A stretch of DNA of 64,000 bases from Geothrix sp. (lineage in GTDB: Bacteria > Acidobacteriota > Holophagae > Holophagales > Holophagaceae): the NCBI RefSeq assembly GCF_020622065.1, contig NZ_JAHRYQ010000001.1, positions 496,001-560,000 on the forward strand, written 5' to 3'. Below the pieces are notes generated by a model. It saw nothing but the letters and a program-made list of their open reading frames with translations. It was not told the DNA's origin and did no database searches. Positions 1,879 through 14,652 of this stretch are shown here, in pieces. Position 1 is the stretch's first letter, and every line of letters starts with the position of its first letter. Made by a program: the position numbers and the translations under genes.

Positions 1879-4647
1879 TCAGAATAGGAGCTTGGCGCCC
1901 AGACGGAAGGTCCGGGGCGGCTCCTGGTCGAGGACCATGCCGTAGTAGGCGCTGCCGTAGCGTTCGCCGCGGGAGGTCACGGCCGCGTCGTTCAGCACAT
2001 TGAACACATCGCCGAACAACTCGAGCGCGCGCTTGCCGCCGAGGCTGAACTTGTGGGACACGCGGAGGTCGAGCAGGCGCCGGGCGTCGTAGGTGCTGGC
2101 ACCGAGTGGCTCGATGTTGATGTAGTAGCGCTCGCGGTTGCCCAGGCGTGAGGTCTGCATGTACCGGGTGTAGTGGAGGCCGCTGAGGTAGACGAAGCTG
2201 GCGTTGAACCGCGTTCCCCAGGGGGCCTTGTACGAGGTCCGCAGCTTGAGCTCGTCGTCGTTGAACCCGGGCAGGTAGCCGTCGTTGTTGTACATCGTGC
2301 CGACCCACTCCCGGCCCGAGGAATACCCGTTCGACTTCAGGAGGTTGCCCTTGTTGCTGGCCTTGGTGACGCTGAAGGACATGTCCCAGTTCGGTGTGAA
2401 GCGGCCGTCCAGGGAGAAGGTGGTGGCCGAGTAGGTGCGCTTGGCGTCCGGATCGTTGGTGATGTAGTAGTCGTGGGTGCCGTCCGCGTTGACGCCGGGC
2501 CGCTGGAAGGTCAGGGTCTGGCTGGTCAGGGGGTTGGTCACCGAGGTGGTCGAGGCGGACAGGGGCAGCCGGTCGTAGCGGGCCAGCAGATCCTTTCCGT
2601 TCCGGCGCACATAGCTGGCCGCCGCCGTCCAGTTCTTGCCGAGGCGCTGCTCCACGGCGAACTGGATCTCGTCGAAGTAGGGGTGCTTGATGTTCGGATC
2701 GAGGGTGCTCTGCTCCGAGACGCCGTTGCGGTAGTTGTCCGGCGTGAAGGTGGGCAGCGGCACATCGGCGAGCGGGTTGCCGAGGTTGGTCAGGCTGAGC
2801 ACCTGGGCGTCATCGTAGTTCGGCCACCAGTAGCGCTTCTCCAGGGGGTAGGCGCCGGGGATCGCGCGGTCGTAGTTGGCGCCGGAGAGCCCGTCGTAGT
2901 AGCGGCCGATGTGGCCCTTGAGGGCCAGGGTCTTGGAGGCGTTGGGCGTCCAGGTGAATCCGAAGCGGGGCGCCAGCGTGGTGGTCTTCCACAGATCCCC
3001 GCCCTTGAATTCCTCAAAGCGGAGGCCGGGGCGCAGGATCAGCTGGTCGTTGACAGTCCACACATCCTGCACATAGAAGGTGTTCCGCTCCAGCTTGGTG
3101 TCGAAGTCGTAGCCGCCGCCCACCTGGACATAGTCCGTGTAGACCGTGTCCCCGTCCGCGATGGCGTTCAGGGAGATGCCACCGGGATACCAGGCCTTCT
3201 CCTTGTCCTTGGCGCGGTCGATGTCGAGGCCGAACTTCAGGGCGTGGGAGCCATTTCCGGCGGGAATGTACCAGTCGAGGGACGCCAGCAGGCCCAGGCG
3301 GCTGCGGGTGTTCTCGAAGGACTGGTAGGCATTGTTCATCTGGTCGAAGCCGAAGTATTTCGCGTAGCCCGGGATGGCGGCGTTCGCAGGCACGCCTCCA
3401 TCGACATAGAGCGAGTACGATTCGCCGTTGTAGGCCTTGTGATCGTCGATGCCGTTGTAGCCGCTGGCCCGGAGGGTCAGCACCATGTTGCTGTTCAGGG
3501 CCTGCAGCCACTCGAGGCCGAAGGTGAAGTTCGGGCCGTCCTGCTTGCGGGTGGCCTCGGCCGCCAGGGTGCGGCTGGCGCCGCGGTGGTCGGTCTGCAC
3601 GGTGTCGTAGTCCAGGAACAGGGAGAGGGTCGCCGTGGGCGTCGCCTGCAGGGTCACATTGGCCATGGCCCGGGGCGTGGAGCGCTTCTCGGAGACGGGG
3701 CTCCCCACGGGCGTGCGCTCGATGGAGATCGCTTCGATGGAGAAGAAGTACCAGAGCTTGTCCTTGATGATGGGACCGCCGATGTTCAGGGCGAGGTCGG
3801 AGGCGGTGTCGCCCACCTTCCGGACGATGATGTCGGGCAGGGAGGGATCCGCCACATTGCGGTTCGCGCTCCAGCTGTCCTTCTGGTAGTAGCCCGCCAG
3901 GGACCCGGAGAACTGGTTGCCGCCCTTCTTGATCATGCCGTTGAAGTAGGCGCCGGAGAATCCGCCGAACTCCGCGCCGGCGCCGACGCCGCCGATTTGG
4001 ACCTCTTCGAACCAGTCCGGGTTGACCTGCACCCAGGCCTGGCCGGCGGAGGAATCGCCCACATTGATGCCGTTGATCAGGTAGGCGTTGGCATTGTCGC
4101 GATCACCGCCGAACCCCGAGGCCGACACCCGCGCGCCGGAACTGACGGTCAGGTTGACGCCGGGCGTGAGGGCCGCGATGGCGGCGATGTCGCGCTTGAT
4201 GGGCAGGTTCTCGATGTCCTCCGCCTTGAAGTTCCGGGTCGTCGTGGAAACCATTTCCTCGGCGCCGGACCGCCCCACGACCTCGACCACCGCCGAAGCC
4301 TCGGGGGACAACTTGAAGTCCACCACGGTGGTCTTGCCGAGTTCGGCGACCTCCTCGGCCTTCCGGGTGGGGAAGCCCTTGGCCTCCACCGTCATCGCAT
4401 AGCGCCCCGGAGGGAGGATCGGGATGCGGTAGCGTCCGTTTTCGGAGCTGACCGCCGTCCGGCTGCCGCCGATCAGCGATTCGGAAGTCACGCGGACCAC
4501 GGCCCCCTGGATGGGCTTGCCGTTCTGATCCAGGATCGTGCCCGTGAGGGCCGAGCTGGTGGTGCTCTGCCCGATCAGGGCCGCGGGACACGCCACCAGT
4601 GCCAGGACGAGCGCACTGAATCTGGAATTGCCAGAGCCTCTAGCCAT
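1879..4647 (-). CDS. TonB-dependent receptor with N-terminal carboxypeptidase-regulatory domain
   Basis: This 922-residue outer-membrane protein starts with a signal peptide (about 1-27). A carboxypeptidase-regulatory-like domain follows (about 30-120, with the NGKPIQGAVVRV and NGRYRIPILPPGRY segments), then a plug domain (about 130-245) and a long beta-barrel ending in Phe (RLGAKLLF), the usual BAM recognition end. This architecture is the expanded receptor family of Acidobacteriota and Bacteroidota that imports oligosaccharides, peptides or metal complexes. ATG 4647 is preferred over GTG 4650 because GGGAGG sits at a better distance. The RpiR regulator immediately upstream on the same strand hints at control by a sugar or amino-sugar metabolite. 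The substrate is unknown. Confidence 0.9.
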   Translation of the reverse strand: MARGSGNSRFSALVLALVACPAALIGQSTTSSALTGTILDQNGKPIQGAVVRVTSESLIGGSRTAVSSENGRYRIPILPPGRYAMTVEAKGFPTRKAEEVAELGKTTVVDFKLSPEASAVVEVVGRSGAEEMVSTTTRNFKAEDIENLPIKRDIAAIAALTPGVNLTVSSGARVSASGFGGDRDNANAYLINGINVGDSSAGQAWVQVNPDWFEEVQIGGVGAGAEFGGFSGAYFNGMIKKGGNQFSGSLAGYYQKDSWSANRNVADPSLPDIIVRKVGDTASDLALNIGGPIIKDKLWYFFSIEAISIERTPVGSPVSEKRSTPRAMANVTLQATPTATLSLFLDYDTVQTDHRGASRTLAAEATRKQDGPNFTFGLEWLQALNSNMVLTLRASGYNGIDDHKAYNGESYSLYVDGGVPANAAIPGYAKYFGFDQMNNAYQSFENTRSRLGLLASLDWYIPAGNGSHALKFGLDIDRAKDKEKAWYPGGISLNAIADGDTVYTDYVQVGGGYDFDTKLERNTFYVQDVWTVNDQLILRPGLRFEEFKGGDLWKTTTLAPRFGFTWTPNASKTLALKGHIGRYYDGLSGANYDRAIPGAYPLEKRYWWPNYDDAQVLSLTNLGNPLADVPLPTFTPDNYRNGVSEQSTLDPNIKHPYFDEIQFAVEQRLGKNWTAAASYVRRNGKDLLARYDRLPLSASTTSVTNPLTSQTLTFQRPGVNADGTHDYYITNDPDAKRTYSATTFSLDGRFTPNWDMSFSVTKASNKGNLLKSNGYSSGREWVGTMYNNDGYLPGFNDDELKLRTSYKAPWGTRFNASFVYLSGLHYTRYMQTSRLGNRERYYINIEPLGASTYDARRLLDLRVSHKFSLGGKRALELFGDVFNVLNDAAVTSRGERYGSAYYGMVLDQEPPRTFRLGAKLLF

Positions 4648-9138: not shown

Positions 9139-9795
9139 CTAGCCCCCTGCCGGGGGGTCATGCTTGGTCCGACGATAGTGGCGGCGGGCCTTGGCGCGGT
9201 TGCCGCAGCTGGCCATGGAACACCAGCGCCGGGACCGGCCGCGGCTCTGGTCGAGGAACAGCCAGGTGCAATGGGCCCCGCCGCATTCCCGCACGGGCGC
9301 CGTGGCCTGGGTGAGCAGGTCCGCCGCGGCCCGGGCGATGGGCCAGAGGGGCGAGGTCAGAGCCGCGGCATCGGGTCGCCAATGCCAGACCAGCGTCCTC
9401 CCCTGGAGGCCGAGGCGCAGGTTCGGCAGGGCTTCCCGGAGAGCCGCATTGAGCCGGGCCAGGTCCGGGCCTGGGATCTCCCGGTCCTGGGCCCGGGCGG
9501 AGAAGATGCCGTACAGCGCCTCGCGCAGGCTCCGGGCGGCCTCGATCGCCGCCGCGGCGGCCGGGGCCTTGGCGGCGGCCCGGGTGGCCAACGCCGCCTC
9601 GCCCACGGGGTCGATCAGGCCGGTCTGCCGGGCGAAGGCCACCAGCTGCGGATAGGTCTGCAGCCCGTCCGTCTCGGGCCGGCCGCGGTCACCCCAGGTG
9701 TTCACGAAATCCAGGCAGAGATCGCCCCCCGACAGCTCGAAGGGGCCTTGGGCGGCCAGGGCAGGGGTTTCGTCCACCCCTAGATGATAACCCAA
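9139..9795 (-). CDS. CGNR zinc-finger / ABATE-domain regulator
   Basis: This protein of about 218 residues has an N-terminal ABATE-type domain (FELSGGDLCLDFVNTWGDR) and a C-terminal CGNR zinc finger (CGGAHCTWLFLD then CSMASCGNRAKARRHY), expected to bind DNA. Such proteins are presumed stress or antibiotic-response regulators. The assigned start is a TTG at 9795 with AAGG seven bases upstream; a GTG at 9777 would give 212 residues. It is divergent from the DinB gene, with only about 70 bp between them, and that gap holds an operator-like palindrome, so mutual or auto-regulation is plausible. Confidence 0.85.
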   Translation of the reverse strand: MGYHLGVDETPALAAQGPFELSGGDLCLDFVNTWGDRGRPETDGLQTYPQLVAFARQTGLIDPVGEAALATRAAAKAPAAAAAIEAARSLREALYGIFSARAQDREIPGPDLARLNAALREALPNLRLGLQGRTLVWHWRPDAAALTSPLWPIARAAADLLTQATAPVRECGGAHCTWLFLDQSRGRSRRWCSMASCGNRAKARRHYRRTKHDPPAGG

Positions 9796-9804
9796 AGATC
9801 TACC

Positions 9805-9860
9805 TTGACAGGTTAGAAATGAGCTTCATATTTAACCTCCATTTAGCATCAAGGAGGTTA
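9805..9860 (+). promoter_or_regulatory. Promoter and palindrome overlapping the Shine-Dalgarno of the DinB gene
   Basis: A sigma70-like promoter is visible: TTGACA (9805-9810), an 18-bp spacer and TATTTA (9829-9834). Just downstream lies a perfect 8-bp inverted repeat TAACCTCC (9833-9840) / GGAGGTTA (9853-9860), whose right arm contains the ribosome-binding site of the DinB gene. If transcription starts about 7 bp after the -10 box, the left arm is not transcribed. A DNA operator is then more likely than an RNA hairpin. Confidence 0.55.
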
Positions 9861-9863
9861 TTC

Positions 9864-10364
9864 ATGGCCCAGACCCAAACCTTGACCTCCACCGGTCTGG
9901 CGGACCAGCTTGAGCGCGGTTTCCGAGGCGGCGCCTGGCATGGGCCGGCCGTAATGGAGCTGCTTGCGGGCGCCGATGCGTCGTTGGCCCAGTGGCGACC
10001 GGGCCCCGCCAGCCACTCCATGGCGGAGCTCGCGGGCCATCTGGCGTACTGGCTCGCGGATGCGGAGCGGCAGATCGTCGGCGCCCCCCGTCTGCAGGGT
10101 GGACCGGGTTCCGATTGGGGTCCCGCCGCGATGGACTCCGAAGCCGCCTGGCAGGCGGTCTGCGCAGCCCTGGAGGAGGCCCATGGCCGCTTGAGGACCG
10201 CCGTCCTCCAGTTGGAGGAAAGCCGCTTCGACGAGGCCAGAGCGGGCTCCGACACCACGATCCGCGGCCTTCTGATGGGCACATTGCAGCACAACGCCTA
10301 CCACGCGGGCCAGATCGCCCTGTTGCGGAAGCTGGCGGAGGCGGCCGGCGGGAGGCCGTCGTGA
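9864..10364 (+). CDS. DinB-family protein
   Basis: This 166-residue protein shows the DinB/YfiT-like four-helix layout: a first metal-ligand His in MAELAGHLAYWLADAER and the later HNAYHAGQIALLRKL motif carrying the remaining histidines. DinB-family proteins are metal-binding; many act as thiol-dependent transferases, but most are uncharacterised. The start at ATG 9864 is set by a strong AAGGAGG four to five bases upstream; a longer frame begins at 9819 without a site. The stop overlaps the GTG of the next gene, so the two are translationally coupled. Confidence 0.85.
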   Translation: MAQTQTLTSTGLADQLERGFRGGAWHGPAVMELLAGADASLAQWRPGPASHSMAELAGHLAYWLADAERQIVGAPRLQGGPGSDWGPAAMDSEAAWQAVCAALEEAHGRLRTAVLQLEESRFDEARAGSDTTIRGLLMGTLQHNAYHAGQIALLRKLAEAAGGRPS

Positions 10365-11341
10365 CCCCTCTGGAAACCCGGACCCTCGAACGGCTCATCG
10401 CGCGCCGGGATCACCTGGCCGACCTGACCTCCTCGCGGAAGGAAGGCCAGTGGGTGGATCTGATGCGGCGGGCGGATGCGGCCATCGGCGCCATCGAGAT
10501 CGGCACCTGGGGCACCTGTGCGGTGTGCCACGATCCCATGAGTGCCAGCCGCATGGCCCAGGACCCGCTGCTGACGGTCTGCCTGGAATGCCTGTCCGAG
10601 GCCGAGCGCCGGGGCCTGGAGCGGGACCTCCAATCCGCTGGCAAGGTGCAGCGCACCCTGCTGCCGCCGCCCCACCTGGTGCAGAACGGCTGGGAGGTGG
10701 CCTACCACTGGGAGCCCCGGGGCGTGGTGTCGGGCGACCATGTGGACTTGATCGCACCCGCCGCGCCTGGAGATCCCCTTCACCTGCTGCTGGGCGATGT
10801 GTCGGGGAAGGGGGTGGCCGCTTCCCTGCTGCAGGCCCACCTGCACGCCCTGTTCCGGGCACTGGTGCCCACCGGGCAACCGCTTCCGGACCTGTTCAGG
10901 CGGGCCAACGAGCTCTTCGCGGACGCCACCTCCTCGGTCAGCTATGCGACCCTGGCGGCCCTGCGGCTGGCTTCGGAGGGCCGCTTCTCGATCGCCAATG
11001 CGGGCCATCCCCGGCCGCTCCTCGCCGATGGCCGGGGCGTGCGGCCCATCGAGGGCGGCGGCCTTCCGCTGGGCCTGTTCTGCGATTCCGTCTACGCCGA
11101 ACGGGAGCTGACGCTGCGCCCGGGCCAGACCCTGCTGCTCTACACGGACGGCTGGACGGAGGGCTCCCGGGACGACCGCGAGTTCGGCATCGGCCGGGCC
11201 GCCGCCGCCCTGCGCCGGAGCGCCGGGCTTCCCCTTCCGGACCTGCTGGCCGCCTGCCGGGCGGACCTTGAGCACTACCTGGCGGGATCGCCCTGCGGCG
11301 ACGATCTCACCCTGGTGGCGGTGCGACGCGCCGCCGCCTGA
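10361..11341 (+). CDS. DksA-type zinc ribbon fused to SpoIIE/RsbU phosphatase
   Basis: This 326-residue fusion starts with a GTG that overlaps the DinB stop (GTGA). The N-terminus (1-80) resembles DksA/TraR: a helical segment, then CxxC (C53, C56) and CxxC (C74, C77) separated by 17 residues. A short linker with KVQRTLLPPP leads into a PP2C-like SpoIIE domain (about 100-325) with SGDHVDL, LLLGDVSGKGVAASLL, ANAGHPRPLL, LLYTDGWTEG and CGDDLTLVAVR. These are the metal-binding aspartate motifs of RsbU-type phosphatases, which dephosphorylate anti-anti-sigma or STAS proteins. No sensor, GAF or PAS domain is present; the zinc ribbon takes that place. The target is unknown. Confidence 0.85.
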   Translation: MTPLETRTLERLIARRDHLADLTSSRKEGQWVDLMRRADAAIGAIEIGTWGTCAVCHDPMSASRMAQDPLLTVCLECLSEAERRGLERDLQSAGKVQRTLLPPPHLVQNGWEVAYHWEPRGVVSGDHVDLIAPAAPGDPLHLLLGDVSGKGVAASLLQAHLHALFRALVPTGQPLPDLFRRANELFADATSSVSYATLAALRLASEGRFSIANAGHPRPLLADGRGVRPIEGGGLPLGLFCDSVYAERELTLRPGQTLLLYTDGWTEGSRDDREFGIGRAAAALRRSAGLPLPDLLAACRADLEHYLAGSPCGDDLTLVAVRRAAA

Positions 11342-11351
11342 ACCTCCGCGA

Positions 11352-11621
11352 TCAGTCGCCCTCGGTCTTCTCCACCACGATCACCATGCGCGTGAGCACC
11401 GCGGCCAGGGCCCCCACGGCGGCGAAGATCGGCAGCAGCGCCGCGCCCACCAGGCCCAGGGTCAGCGGGATCTCGATGAGGGTCTTGCCCTCTTCGTTCT
11501 TCAGGATGATCCGCCGGATGTTGCCCTGGTGGATGAGCTCTTTGATCTTGTCGAGGACCTTGCCGCCCTCGAGCTTGAATTCCTCGGTTCGGGTGCGGCC
11601 GGATGCGGCGTCGGTGGGCAT
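11352..11621 (-). CDS. DUF4342 small membrane protein
   Basis: This 89-residue protein has an N-terminal soluble half (EEFKLEGGKVLDKIKELIHQGNIRRIILKNEEGKTL) and a single hydrophobic segment at about 52-75, matching DUF4342. The function is unknown; in this family the soluble part is often compared to a UBA-like helical region. GGAG precedes ATG 11621. It lies just downstream of the sensor-domain membrane protein on the same strand (16-bp gap), so the two are probably co-expressed, and it converges on the phosphatase gene. Confidence 0.8.
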   Translation of the reverse strand: MPTDAASGRTRTEEFKLEGGKVLDKIKELIHQGNIRRIILKNEEGKTLIEIPLTLGLVGAALLPIFAAVGALAAVLTRMVIVVEKTEGD

Positions 11622-11636
11622 GGGGGATCTCCGGGG

Positions 11637-12278
11637 TCAGGCGCAGACCAGCAGATGCCGGGCCAGCCAGGTTTGGAAGCGGCCCAACAGCAGGGCCAGG
11701 TGCAGGGTGAGGGGGACGAGGGTCAGGCCCGCCAGGCCGCAGAGGACCGCCGTCAGGGTCGGATGGGCGGCCAGCCAGGCGGGGCCGCCGAGGTCCACGC
11801 TGGAGGTGCCGGTGGCATGGAGCAGGCTCAGGATCGGGACCGCCACGAGGGCCAGCCCCATGGTGAGGAGGGTGACCAGTACCGTGAAGTAGACGACACC
11901 CAGGGGCATGAGCAGCACGAAGTAGAGCAGGCTGGTCCAGGTGCGGCGGTCGCGGACCAGGACCCCCAGCCGTGCGGCCCAGCCCTCGCCGACGGGCAGC
12001 AGGGGCGGGACCTCGGCCTCCTCACCACCCACCAGGGCCTTCAGCCAATGCCTCTCGGCCACGGCCAGGAAGCGGGTGCCGGACAGGAAGAGCAGCGCCA
12101 CGGGAAGGCCGATGATCAGGATGGCCAGGCCCAGGCTGAGGGAGAGCCCCGTCACCGCGTAGGTGAAGGCGAGGATGCCCGTGGCCAGGGAGAGCAGCAG
12201 GTAGAGCAGGGTGGTGTAGGCGCGGCGGGAACTCAGGATCTCGAAGAAACCGGGATGGGAGGGGGACAACAAGGACAC
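11637..12278 (-). CDS. Putative sensor-domain membrane protein
   Basis: This 213-residue protein has four or more predicted membrane segments (about 22-45, 48-68, 115-145 and 170-195). It matches the stand-alone putative-sensor domain (PF13796 type) often found N-terminal to histidine kinases; here no kinase part follows. The start is a GTG at 12278 with GGAGG upstream. It pairs with the DUF4342 gene downstream. A role in sensing membrane or envelope state is suggested by the family only; nothing in the sequence gives a ligand. Confidence 0.7.
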   Translation of the reverse strand: MSLLSPSHPGFFEILSSRRAYTTLLYLLLSLATGILAFTYAVTGLSLSLGLAILIIGLPVALLFLSGTRFLAVAERHWLKALVGGEEAEVPPLLPVGEGWAARLGVLVRDRRTWTSLLYFVLLMPLGVVYFTVLVTLLTMGLALVAVPILSLLHATGTSSVDLGGPAWLAAHPTLTAVLCGLAGLTLVPLTLHLALLLGRFQTWLARHLLVCA

Positions 12279-12398
12279 GGGGCCTCCGGGACACCCCCAA
12301 TGTACGAGCCGGCGCCGGTTTGGGCGCCTGGAACCGGCGAACGGAAGGCGGGCATCGGCGAAGGAACGGCTGAGTGCGGAAGAGCCCGAGCCGAGGCC

Positions 12399-12755
12399 TC
12401 AATTGTCGTAGCAGGGGCCGACTTCCCGGACCTCGACGGTGGCCCATTCCGCGGCGGGGCAGGTCGCCGCGATGGCGACAGCCTCATCCCGGGTTTGGCA
12501 ATCCAGGTAGAAGAAGCCCCCGACCATTTCCTTGGACTCGGAGAAGGGACCATCCAGGAGGGTGCATCGACCCTCCCGCACCTGCACCCGCACGCCCTCC
12601 CGGTCGGATCGGAGCGAGTTGGTGGCCAGGAGCAGGCCGCGGGCCTGCAGATCCTCCGAGAAACGAACCATCCGGTCATAGACGGCATGCCCCTCCTCTG
12701 GGGTCCGGCTCGGGCGCTGCGCCCGCGATTCCAGGATCAGCAGCATGTAGGGCAT
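12399..12755 (-). CDS. YciI/DGPF-family protein (ECF42-linked)
   Basis: This 118-residue protein has the DGPF signature (LLDGPFSESKEMVGGFFYLDCQTRDEAVAIAATCP), a ferredoxin-like alpha+beta barrel related to YciI. It lies directly downstream (30 bp) of an ECF42 sigma factor; this pairing is a known conserved feature of that sigma group. YciI-like proteins have been proposed to be small enzymes, but the DGPF type has no assigned reaction. AAGGAG precedes ATG 12755. Confidence 0.88.
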   Translation of the reverse strand: MPYMLLILESRAQRPSRTPEEGHAVYDRMVRFSEDLQARGLLLATNSLRSDREGVRVQVREGRCTLLDGPFSESKEMVGGFFYLDCQTRDEAVAIAATCPAAEWATVEVREVGPCYDN

Positions 12756-12785
12756 GGGGATCTCCTTCCGGGTGGGTTGAGAGGC

Positions 12786-14063
12786 TCAGGCGTCGCCGCA
12801 GGCGGCGGCCCGGTCGAGGAGCAGCTTCCGCTCCCGGGCGTTCCGCACGAGACCGGCCGCCCGCTGGAACTCGCTCCGGGCCTCCCTGGCGCGCCCCAGC
12901 TTCGCGAGGAGGTCGCCTCGGATGCTCGGGAGCAGGTGATAGCTCTGGAGCGCCGGCTCAGAGGTGAGCGCGTCGACGATCTCGAGACCCGCCGCGGGAC
13001 CGGAGGCCATGCCCAGTGCCACGGCCCGGTTCAGCTCCACGATGGGCGAGGGGGTGAGGTGGGCGAGCGTCTCGTAGAGGGCGGCGATGCGGGCCCAGTC
13101 GGTGTCGGCGGCCGTACGGGCGCGCGCGTGGCAGCCGGCGATGGTCGCCTGCAGCGCGTAGGGGCCCGGGGGCTCGCCCAGCGCCAGGGCCTGCGCATGG
13201 GCCCGCTCGAGGGCGGCCAGGCCGCGCCGGATGAGGAGCTGGTCCCACCGTCCGCGATCCTGGTCGAGCAGGAGGATGGGTTCGCCGTCGGGCCCCACGC
13301 GCGCGCGCAGCCGGGAGGCCTGGATCTCCAGGAGGGCGACCAGGCCGTGGGCCTCCGGCTCCTGCGGGACCAGCCCGGCCAGGATGCGGCCGAGCCGCAG
13401 GGCCTCTTCGCAGAGCCCGGGCCGGATCCAGTCCTCGCCGGCGGTGGCCGAGTAGCCTTCGTTGAAGATGAGGTAGATCACTTCCAGCACCGAGGCCAGG
13501 CGGTCGCGGAGCTCGGCCCCGTGGGGCCCTTCGAAGGGAACCCGGGCCTCGGCCAGGGTCCGCTTGGCCCGGACGATGCGCTGCGCGACGGTGGGCTCCG
13601 GTACGAGGAAGGCGCGGGCGATCTCCTCGGTCGTCAGGCCCCCCAGCAGGCGCAGGGTGAGCGCGGTCCTGGCCTCGGGCGAGAGCCGCGGATGGCAGGC
13701 GATGAACATGAGCCGCAACAGGTCGTCCCCGATGGGATCATCCAGTCCGGCGTGGAAGGCCTCCATGGCCGTCTCCTGCTGGGCCTCGAGTTCCCGTCCC
13801 AGGGCCTCGTGCTTCAGCTCCATCAGCTTGATTCGCCGCAGCCGGTCGATGGCCCGGTGCTTGGCCGTGGCCATGAGCCAGGCCCCGGGGTTGTCGGGGA
13901 CTCCCGTTCCGGGCCACTGCTCGAGGGCGGCGACGAGGGCATCCTGGGCGAGTTCCTCCGCCAGATCGAGGTCGCGCACCATCCGCAGGAGCCCCGCGAT
14001 GAGCCGGGCGGATTCCATCCGCCAGACGGCGTCGATGGCTCGATGGGCGTCGGATGTCGTCAC
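12786..14063 (-). CDS. ECF42-type RNA polymerase sigma factor
   Basis: This 425-residue protein carries sigma region 2 (ELAQDALVAALEQWP and NPGAWLMATAKHRAIDRLRR) and region 4 (LTTEEIARAFLVPEPTVAQRIVRAKRTL) in its first 200 residues. A long C-terminal helical, TPR-like extension follows (about 200-425), diagnostic of the ECF42 group. These factors lack a classical anti-sigma factor and are thought to be controlled through their own extension. I chose GTG 14063 because it gives the canonical short N-terminus; the frame is open 46 codons further upstream. The next gene is a DGPF protein, and two more DGPF genes lie within 4 kb. Confidence 0.9.
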   Translation of the reverse strand: MTTSDAHRAIDAVWRMESARLIAGLLRMVRDLDLAEELAQDALVAALEQWPGTGVPDNPGAWLMATAKHRAIDRLRRIKLMELKHEALGRELEAQQETAMEAFHAGLDDPIGDDLLRLMFIACHPRLSPEARTALTLRLLGGLTTEEIARAFLVPEPTVAQRIVRAKRTLAEARVPFEGPHGAELRDRLASVLEVIYLIFNEGYSATAGEDWIRPGLCEEALRLGRILAGLVPQEPEAHGLVALLEIQASRLRARVGPDGEPILLLDQDRGRWDQLLIRRGLAALERAHAQALALGEPPGPYALQATIAGCHARARTAADTDWARIAALYETLAHLTPSPIVELNRAVALGMASGPAAGLEIVDALTSEPALQSYHLLPSIRGDLLAKLGRAREARSEFQRAAGLVRNARERKLLLDRAAACGDA

Positions 14064-14178
14064 ATGGGAATCAGACCAGCTTCGCCCGCGGGCCGCAACC
14101 TCCCGCGACGGCCTCGGCCTTGTTGAGCGAGGAGGTTTTGCTCGGCACGCCTCGGCGCAGCTGGCCGGAAGGTGGATA

Positions 14179-14652
14179 TCAACCTCGTATGGCCTCTTCA
14201 ATTGAAGCGATGTCGATTTTCTTCATGGGCATCATGGCCTTGAAGGCACGCTTCGCGACCTGGCCGCCCCTCGCCATCGCCTCGGTCAGAATGCGCGGCG
14301 TGATCTGCCAGCTGACGCCCCACTTGTCCTTGCACCAGCCACATTGGCTTTCCTGGCCATCGTTTCCGACAATCGCGTTCCAATACCGGTCCGTCTCCTC
14401 TTGGTCCTCCGTCGCGATCTGGAACGAAAAGGCCTCGCTGGGTTTGAATTGAGGCCCGCCATTCAAGCCAATGCACGGTATTCCCGCGACAATGAACTCC
14501 ACGACCAAGGTGTCGCCCGTTTTGCCATCCGGATAGTCCGAAGGGGCCTTGTGGATGGCTCCGAGATGGCTCTGCGGGAAGATCCCGGTGTAGAAGCGTG
14601 CCGCTTCTTCTGCGTCACGCTCGTACCACAGACAGATCGTGTTCTTGCTCAT
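14179..14652 (-). CDS. PhnB-like VOC-superfamily protein
   Basis: This 157-residue protein is of the PhnB / 3-demethylubiquinone-methyltransferase-like VOC type. It has paired beta-alpha-beta modules (TICLWYERDAEEAARFYTGIFPQS and LVVEFIVAGIPCIGLNGGPQFKPSEAFSF) and ends with WQITPRILTEAM. Members of this family are metal-dependent or metal-free enzymes of varied function, and the name methyltransferase is historical. GGAG precedes ATG 14652. It sits 15 bp from the RibD-type reductase on the same strand. Codon use here is somewhat less GC-biased than in the preceding sigma gene. Confidence 0.85.
   Translation of the reverse strand: MSKNTICLWYERDAEEAARFYTGIFPQSHLGAIHKAPSDYPDGKTGDTLVVEFIVAGIPCIGLNGGPQFKPSEAFSFQIATEDQEETDRYWNAIVGNDGQESQCGWCKDKWGVSWQITPRILTEAMARGGQVAKRAFKAMMPMKKIDIASIEEAIRG

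Follow-up and report, generated by a model that had tools for sequence, protein, structure and literature searches.

The locus lies in a window of 64,000 nucleotides, the whole stretch of DNA that was analysed, from a Geothrix genome of 3.35 Mb in two contigs. A gene in this window encodes a protein in which a complete SpoIIE/PPM phosphatase domain comes after a short helical hairpin, a C4 zinc ribbon and a helical linker, in this order. The gene is preceded by a DinB_2 gene and, on the other strand, by a divergent regulator gene. The features of the region are as follows.

9139–9795, minus strand: divergent ABATE (PF07336)/zf-CGNR (PF11706) regulator gene (Pfam), kept beside the phosphatase gene in Holophagaceae and at loci L079 and L100
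9788–9815, plus strand: operator-like repeat 1, TAACC-N12-TTGACAGGTTA, containing a -35 element TTGACA (9805–9810)
9833–9860, plus strand: operator-like repeat 2, TAACC...GGAGGTTA, overlapping the Shine-Dalgarno sequence of the DinB gene
9864–10364, plus strand: DinB_2 superfamily gene, 166 aa (PF12867, E 1.9e-10), with a GTGA overlap with the phosphatase gene
10361–11341, plus strand: zinc-ribbon/SpoIIE phosphatase fusion gene, 326 aa, GTG start, orthologues known
10367–10498, plus strand: N-terminal helical hairpin, residues 3–46 (predicted helices 3–23 and 28–46; low-confidence AF2 models, alignment)
10511–10609, plus strand: DksA/TraR-type zinc ribbon, residues 51–83, with predicted ligands C53, C56, C74 and C77 (PF01258, hhalign, ligand counts)
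10598–10666, plus strand: helical linker, residues 80–102, ending RDLQSAGKVQRTLLP (AF2 helix 80–100, conservation)
10769–11329, plus strand: SpoIIE/PPM phosphatase domain as matched by Pfam, residues 137–323 (invariant Asp, fold match)

The closest named relatives of the fusion protein were found in Geothrix species (Acidobacteriota). A chance open reading frame, a chance fusion and a frameshift artefact were excluded, because the single frame is intact in the orthologues and the identity to congeners is 80–95%. The earlier note on this DNA had read the protein as an RsbU/SpoIIE phosphatase carrying a DksA-type ribbon at the sensor position, and this domain reading was confirmed by Pfam, hhalign and the homologues. 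The translational coupling to the DinB gene that it had described was also found to be real, as Geothrix, L012, L079 from another family and L100 from a third all preserve the GTGA or ATGA overlap.

The SpoIIE model PF07228 matched residues 137–323 with an E-value of 2.9e-38 and 132.2 bits, against a cut-off of 25. The catalytic aspartates of the window protein are D126, D146, D263 and D315, the first of which lies just before the start of the Pfam match. In the alignment of homologues D126, D146, D263, D314 and D315 were invariant (48/48) and D129 was present in 45 of the 48. Among the NCBIfam models the phosphatase part came nearest to SiaA and the N-terminus nearest to DksA, and phmmer searches of the PDB with the phosphatase part returned SiaA, Rv1364c and RssB. 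The C-terminal part of the AF2 model, with pLDDT mostly 70–93, matched SiaA-PP2C (6k4e) with Z 23.1 and an rmsd of 3.1 over 239 residues, followed by Rv1364c (Z 22.5) and RssB (Z 22.0). As modelled, the protein has the PPM fold of a SpoIIE/PPM serine phosphatase, and its best solved relatives are SiaA 6k4e, Rv1364c 3ke6 and Pseudomonas aeruginosa RssB 3es2/3eq2. With the RsbU/RsbP/SiaA/RssB-type phosphatases it shares the SpoIIE domain at the C-terminus, in which every catalytic Asp is present, and a conserved helical linker ahead of it, but its input is a DksA-type ribbon instead of an RsbU_N, PAS, GAF, receiver or HAMP domain. It also differs from RsbU proper, as Pfam found no RsbT-binding N-terminal domain and its gene neighbours are ABATE, DinB, DUF4342 and Sensor genes rather than those of a stressosome. 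No domain with a ligand-binding pocket was found in the protein by Pfam.

For the window protein alone, zf-dskA_traR (PF01258) matched residues 51–83 with an E-value of 8.4e-4 and 19.7 bits, below the gathering score of 24.9. The same model matched 43 of the 48 homologues (best E 4e-10), and hhalign of 40 family N-termini against stand-alone DksA gave a probability of 98.3 and an E-value of 1.7e-14 over residues 32–84 of the window protein, a segment that corresponds to the second DksA coiled-coil arm through the ribbon. TIGR02420 (dksA) matched the N-terminus with E 3.1e-6, and phmmer against the PDB found DksA 2kq9 for the ribbon. On the strength of the PF01258 matches in the homologues, hhalign and TIGR02420, the ribbon is securely homologous to DksA, despite the sub-threshold score of the single protein. 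The likeness to DksA/TraR extends over the ribbon, CxxC-N17-CxxC, and the preceding segment EVDaAL.rle.G.yG.C. The fusion protein differs in lacking the long coiled coil and the tip motif, in having the ribbon joined to an enzyme, and in a fourth ligand that is often His or Asp in its family. In the source genome, searches with PF01258 and TIGR02420 returned no canonical DksA/TraR protein over the cut-off, and the phosphatase ribbon was the only good match of this type.

C53, C56 and C74 were invariant in all 48 homologues across Acidobacteriota. Position 77 was His in 26 of them, Cys in 14, Asp in 6, and Arg and Glu in one each; the latter two have a Cys one residue earlier. Judged from these alignments, the metal site is kept across the family and the strict four-Cys thiol set is not. 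All four Cys are retained in Geothrix and in the other Holophagaceae orthologues except L027, a diverged homologue of 38% identity in which the last ribbon Cys is replaced by Asp. The genome that carries it, G014, belongs to the Geothrix group and is without the orthologue.

Ahead of the ribbon about 46 residues, predicted as two short helices in low-confidence AF2 models, replace the long DksA coiled coil. The hhalign alignment to DksA starts only past the coiled-coil tip. The loop between the helices, at the tip position, was the least conserved part (column entropy 2.99 bits), D18 and D21 were not conserved, and no conserved acidic tip residue was found among the 48 homologues. The long coiled coil with an acidic tip, the feature by which DksA/TraR proteins enter the RNA polymerase secondary channel, is therefore missing, and a DksA-like entry into the channel is unlikely. 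AF2 of the N-terminus from an 8-sequence alignment reached a pLDDT of 57, and its best fold match, a TetR helix pair, was weak (Z 4.5); so was the match of the low-confidence model to DksA2 4ijj (Z 2.5).

The segment behind the ribbon lies where PPM phosphatases have their alpha-0 coiled-coil linker. AF2 placed a helix at residues 80–100, directly after the ribbon, with low confidence at that place. Mean column entropy in the homologue alignment was 1.49 bits for the linker, 1.46 for the ribbon and 1.70 for the SpoIIE domain; hence the linker is about as conserved as the ribbon, which fits the linker mechanism published for RsbU-type phosphatases. The equivalent linker of RsbU is a crossing coiled coil through which the phosphatase is dimerised and activated, a mechanism that has been proposed to apply generally to the diverse sensor domains of such phosphatases (PMC12143880). 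By analogy, the ribbon may act through the coiled-coil linker.

A survey of the taxonomic range, which the earlier note had proposed, found the fusion in 55 of 396 sampled Acidobacteriota genomes and in 24 of 87 families. The scores of this N-terminal profile search were bimodal, with fusions at 79 bits or more and DksA-like matches below about 56 bits. The fusion matches continued past the ribbon into the linker of the phosphatase, and almost all lay in open frames longer than 300 codons; genomes and families were counted by hand from the profile-search table. A rare oddity was thereby ruled out, and the fusion is a conserved family, not a local accident. Beyond Acidobacteriota the search covered Omnitrophota, plasmids and a peptide-pattern scan for close relatives. 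Of 145 sampled Omnitrophota genomes, 92 had DksA-like matches to the N-terminal profile, and no fusion was found among these; the matches listed comprised the ribbon part only, in frames of about DksA size. No plasmid-borne or viral copies were found, and the full-length plasmid matches look like ordinary SpoIIE matches.

In a tree of phosphatase domains, in which the comparison sequences were mainly from Holophagaceae, 47 of the 49 fusion members fell into one supported group (SH-aLRT 95) and the other two into an unresolved fork. When all 49 were held together, the likelihood was better than that of the free tree and p-AU was 0.70. Because the fusion domains largely group and a single clade is not rejected, the tree, with its mainly Holophagaceae comparisons, supports but does not prove that the ribbon stayed with one phosphatase lineage. 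No paper joining a DksA-type ribbon and SpoIIE was found in a literature search that did not reach most subscription journals. To the question raised earlier, whether the architecture is common and characterised, the answer is divided: it is common across Acidobacteriota, and no characterisation was found. The zinc-ribbon/SpoIIE fusion is thus a widespread and apparently undescribed Acidobacteriota protein family.

No neighbour was conserved across the fusion family, apart from ABATE and DinB in a few lineages. The DinB partner is lineage-specific; L125 and L126 lack it and have the ABATE gene directly opposite the phosphatase gene. STAS, RsbW or sigma genes did not recur beside the fusion. 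Six STAS matches were counted in the source genome, along with two small RsbW-like kinases at C1:1843162 and C2:287471, one of 146 aa and one in a frame of 191 codons. None of these is beside the fusion, and other SpoIIE genes of this genome do adjoin STAS genes. Downstream, at 11352–14201, lie DUF4342, PF13796 Sensor and YCII-like genes and a probable ECF-type sigma gene on the minus strand, a block that is kept beside the operon in six Geothrix loci.

The divergent neighbour carries both domains of the ABATE/CGNR proteins (Jann_2411, DUF1470), which have been proposed as stress-induced transcription regulators (PMC2954205). The passages of that paper that were consulted give no DNA site, whereas here a promoter with two operator-like repeats is predicted. 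The intergenic DNA between the ABATE and DinB genes (9788–9860) reads TAACC-N12-TTGACAGGTTA-N17-TAACC-N18-GGTTA, with the second repeat downstream of a -10-like CATATT (9827–9832). The listed TTG start of the ABATE/CGNR gene overlaps the operator, so that the true start is probably a few codons further in.

The first repeat was found in 12 of 77 Holophagaceae genomes, all of which carry the fusion. Eleven of these have it at the fusion locus, each time with a gap of 12 in a search that allowed 8–30; in the remaining genome, G020, the exact match is elsewhere and a degenerate copy stands at the fusion locus. Another genome, G018, has the fusion with a variant left half-site. In the wider sample the operator pattern occurred in 23 of 396 Acidobacteriota genomes, against 4 with the reversed control. 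Outside Holophagaceae there were 13 loci, 10 of them with a directly divergent ABATE gene (L165, L167–L170, L173–L177, from several Acidobacteriota families). All ten show gaps of 11–13 together with a second repeat, either as such or in a variant form; DinB is also present at six of them and the fusion at two. The remaining three, L166, L171 and L172, with other gaps, have neither an ABATE gene nor a clear second repeat and were judged to be chance matches. Because 10 of these 13 loci have a divergent ABATE gene, the operator goes with the ABATE/CGNR regulators and is a predicted DNA target for them. From the distribution of the sequences, ABATE and DinB look like an older pair that was joined later by the phosphatase.

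Additional copies of the repeats were seen away from the fusion gene. In L159 (G020:C135:3721-3748) both repeats stand immediately ahead of a probable EamA-type transporter gene, with no ABATE gene nearby. In G. fermentans a second operator copy lies beyond the ABATE gene, on its other side, and faces other small genes (L164, G007:C2:51447-51474; L011, about 3347–3374), and the regulon is therefore probably larger in that species.

The joint explanation that we favour, with a probability of roughly 55%, is that the protein is an RsbU-type partner-switching phosphatase with a metal-ribbon input or dimerisation module, whose expression is controlled by the ABATE/CGNR regulator. In the N-terminal module a short helical hairpin would precede the zinc-ribbon half of a DksA-type protein; the helix after the ribbon would continue into the phosphatase linker. 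The ribbon is predicted to bind zinc and may serve for compact dimerisation, as a metal- or thiol-responsive input, or both; by setting the conformation of the coiled-coil linker it would switch the phosphatase. As the pLDDT of the N-terminal AF2 models ranges from 57 to below 50, dimerisation and the continuity of the helix are held only tentatively. The target would probably be a phosphorylated STAS-type antagonist encoded elsewhere; since no STAS, RsbW or sigma gene recurs beside the fusion, this substrate is a guess. In Geothrix the gene would form an operon with DinB behind a promoter flanked by the two TAACC/GGTTA repeats, which are probably bound by the divergent ABATE/CGNR regulator.

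What the ribbon does can be read in several ways. It might be a sensor that works by redox chemistry or zinc release, as has been suggested for DksA: the Cys would be oxidised by oxidants, zinc would leave and the phosphatase would be switched on or off for a stress response. We consider this possible, though somewhat doubtful. The all-Cys ligands of the window protein and of the Holophagaceae orthologues other than L027, the three invariant Cys of the family, the weak match of the DinB_2 partner to a mycothiol-transferase model and the stress role proposed for ABATE proteins (PMC2954205) are consistent with it. The ligand changes at position 77, however, preserve metal binding and not the C4 thiol set, and DinB and ABATE are not beside most fusion members. 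Of the oxidant response through the zinc site suggested earlier, a redox sensor thus stays possible, whereas the four-cysteine switch has to be given up as a family-wide mechanism, because position 77 is His or Asp in so many homologues.

The same exchanges among Cys, His and Asp, which keep the metal but no constant chemistry, would suit a ribbon that may be purely structural: a zinc-stabilised dimerising cap, with regulation left to the ABATE-controlled promoter or another partner. The conservation of the operator where DinB is lost (L125, L126) and the lack of a pocket domain point the same way. We hold this reading tentatively, as conserved residues other than the ligands, G51, P69, L75 and L78 in the ribbon and L34, D39 and A41 in the hairpin arm, suggest an interaction surface, although packing could also explain their conservation. 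The direct contact with RNA polymerase that the earlier note had considered, by which the DksA-like part would bring the phosphatase to the transcription machinery or a sigma-factor complex, appears very improbable. It draws on the homology to DksA and on the source genome having no other convincing ribbon of this type, but the coiled coil is shortened to about 20 residues per arm, the homology begins past the poorly conserved tip, and other carriers of the fusion, e.g. G262, also have separate DksA-sized genes.

The phosphatase belongs to an already known kind, SpoIIE/PPM; new is its unusual ribbon input domain, and the family is uncharacterised. A modular build, with exchangeable sensor domains that act on a shared linker, has been proposed for PPM phosphatases (PMC12143880). 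A metal ribbon at the sensor place, found phylum-wide, is a sensor type outside the examples of that paper, in whose survey of sensor domains the word zinc does not occur, and the ribbon-phosphatase family would be a test of this toolkit idea on a very small module. In addition, the fusion illustrates the reuse of a piece of an RNA polymerase regulator in a protein-phosphorylation pathway, and the operator offers a first concrete DNA target to try for ABATE/CGNR regulators. Tentatively, we picture a phylum-wide family in which a DksA-derived ribbon might read cytosolic zinc or redox state and pass it through the linker as input to the phosphatase, and which in Geothrix would be placed under the control of an ABATE/CGNR regulator and its two-repeat operator.
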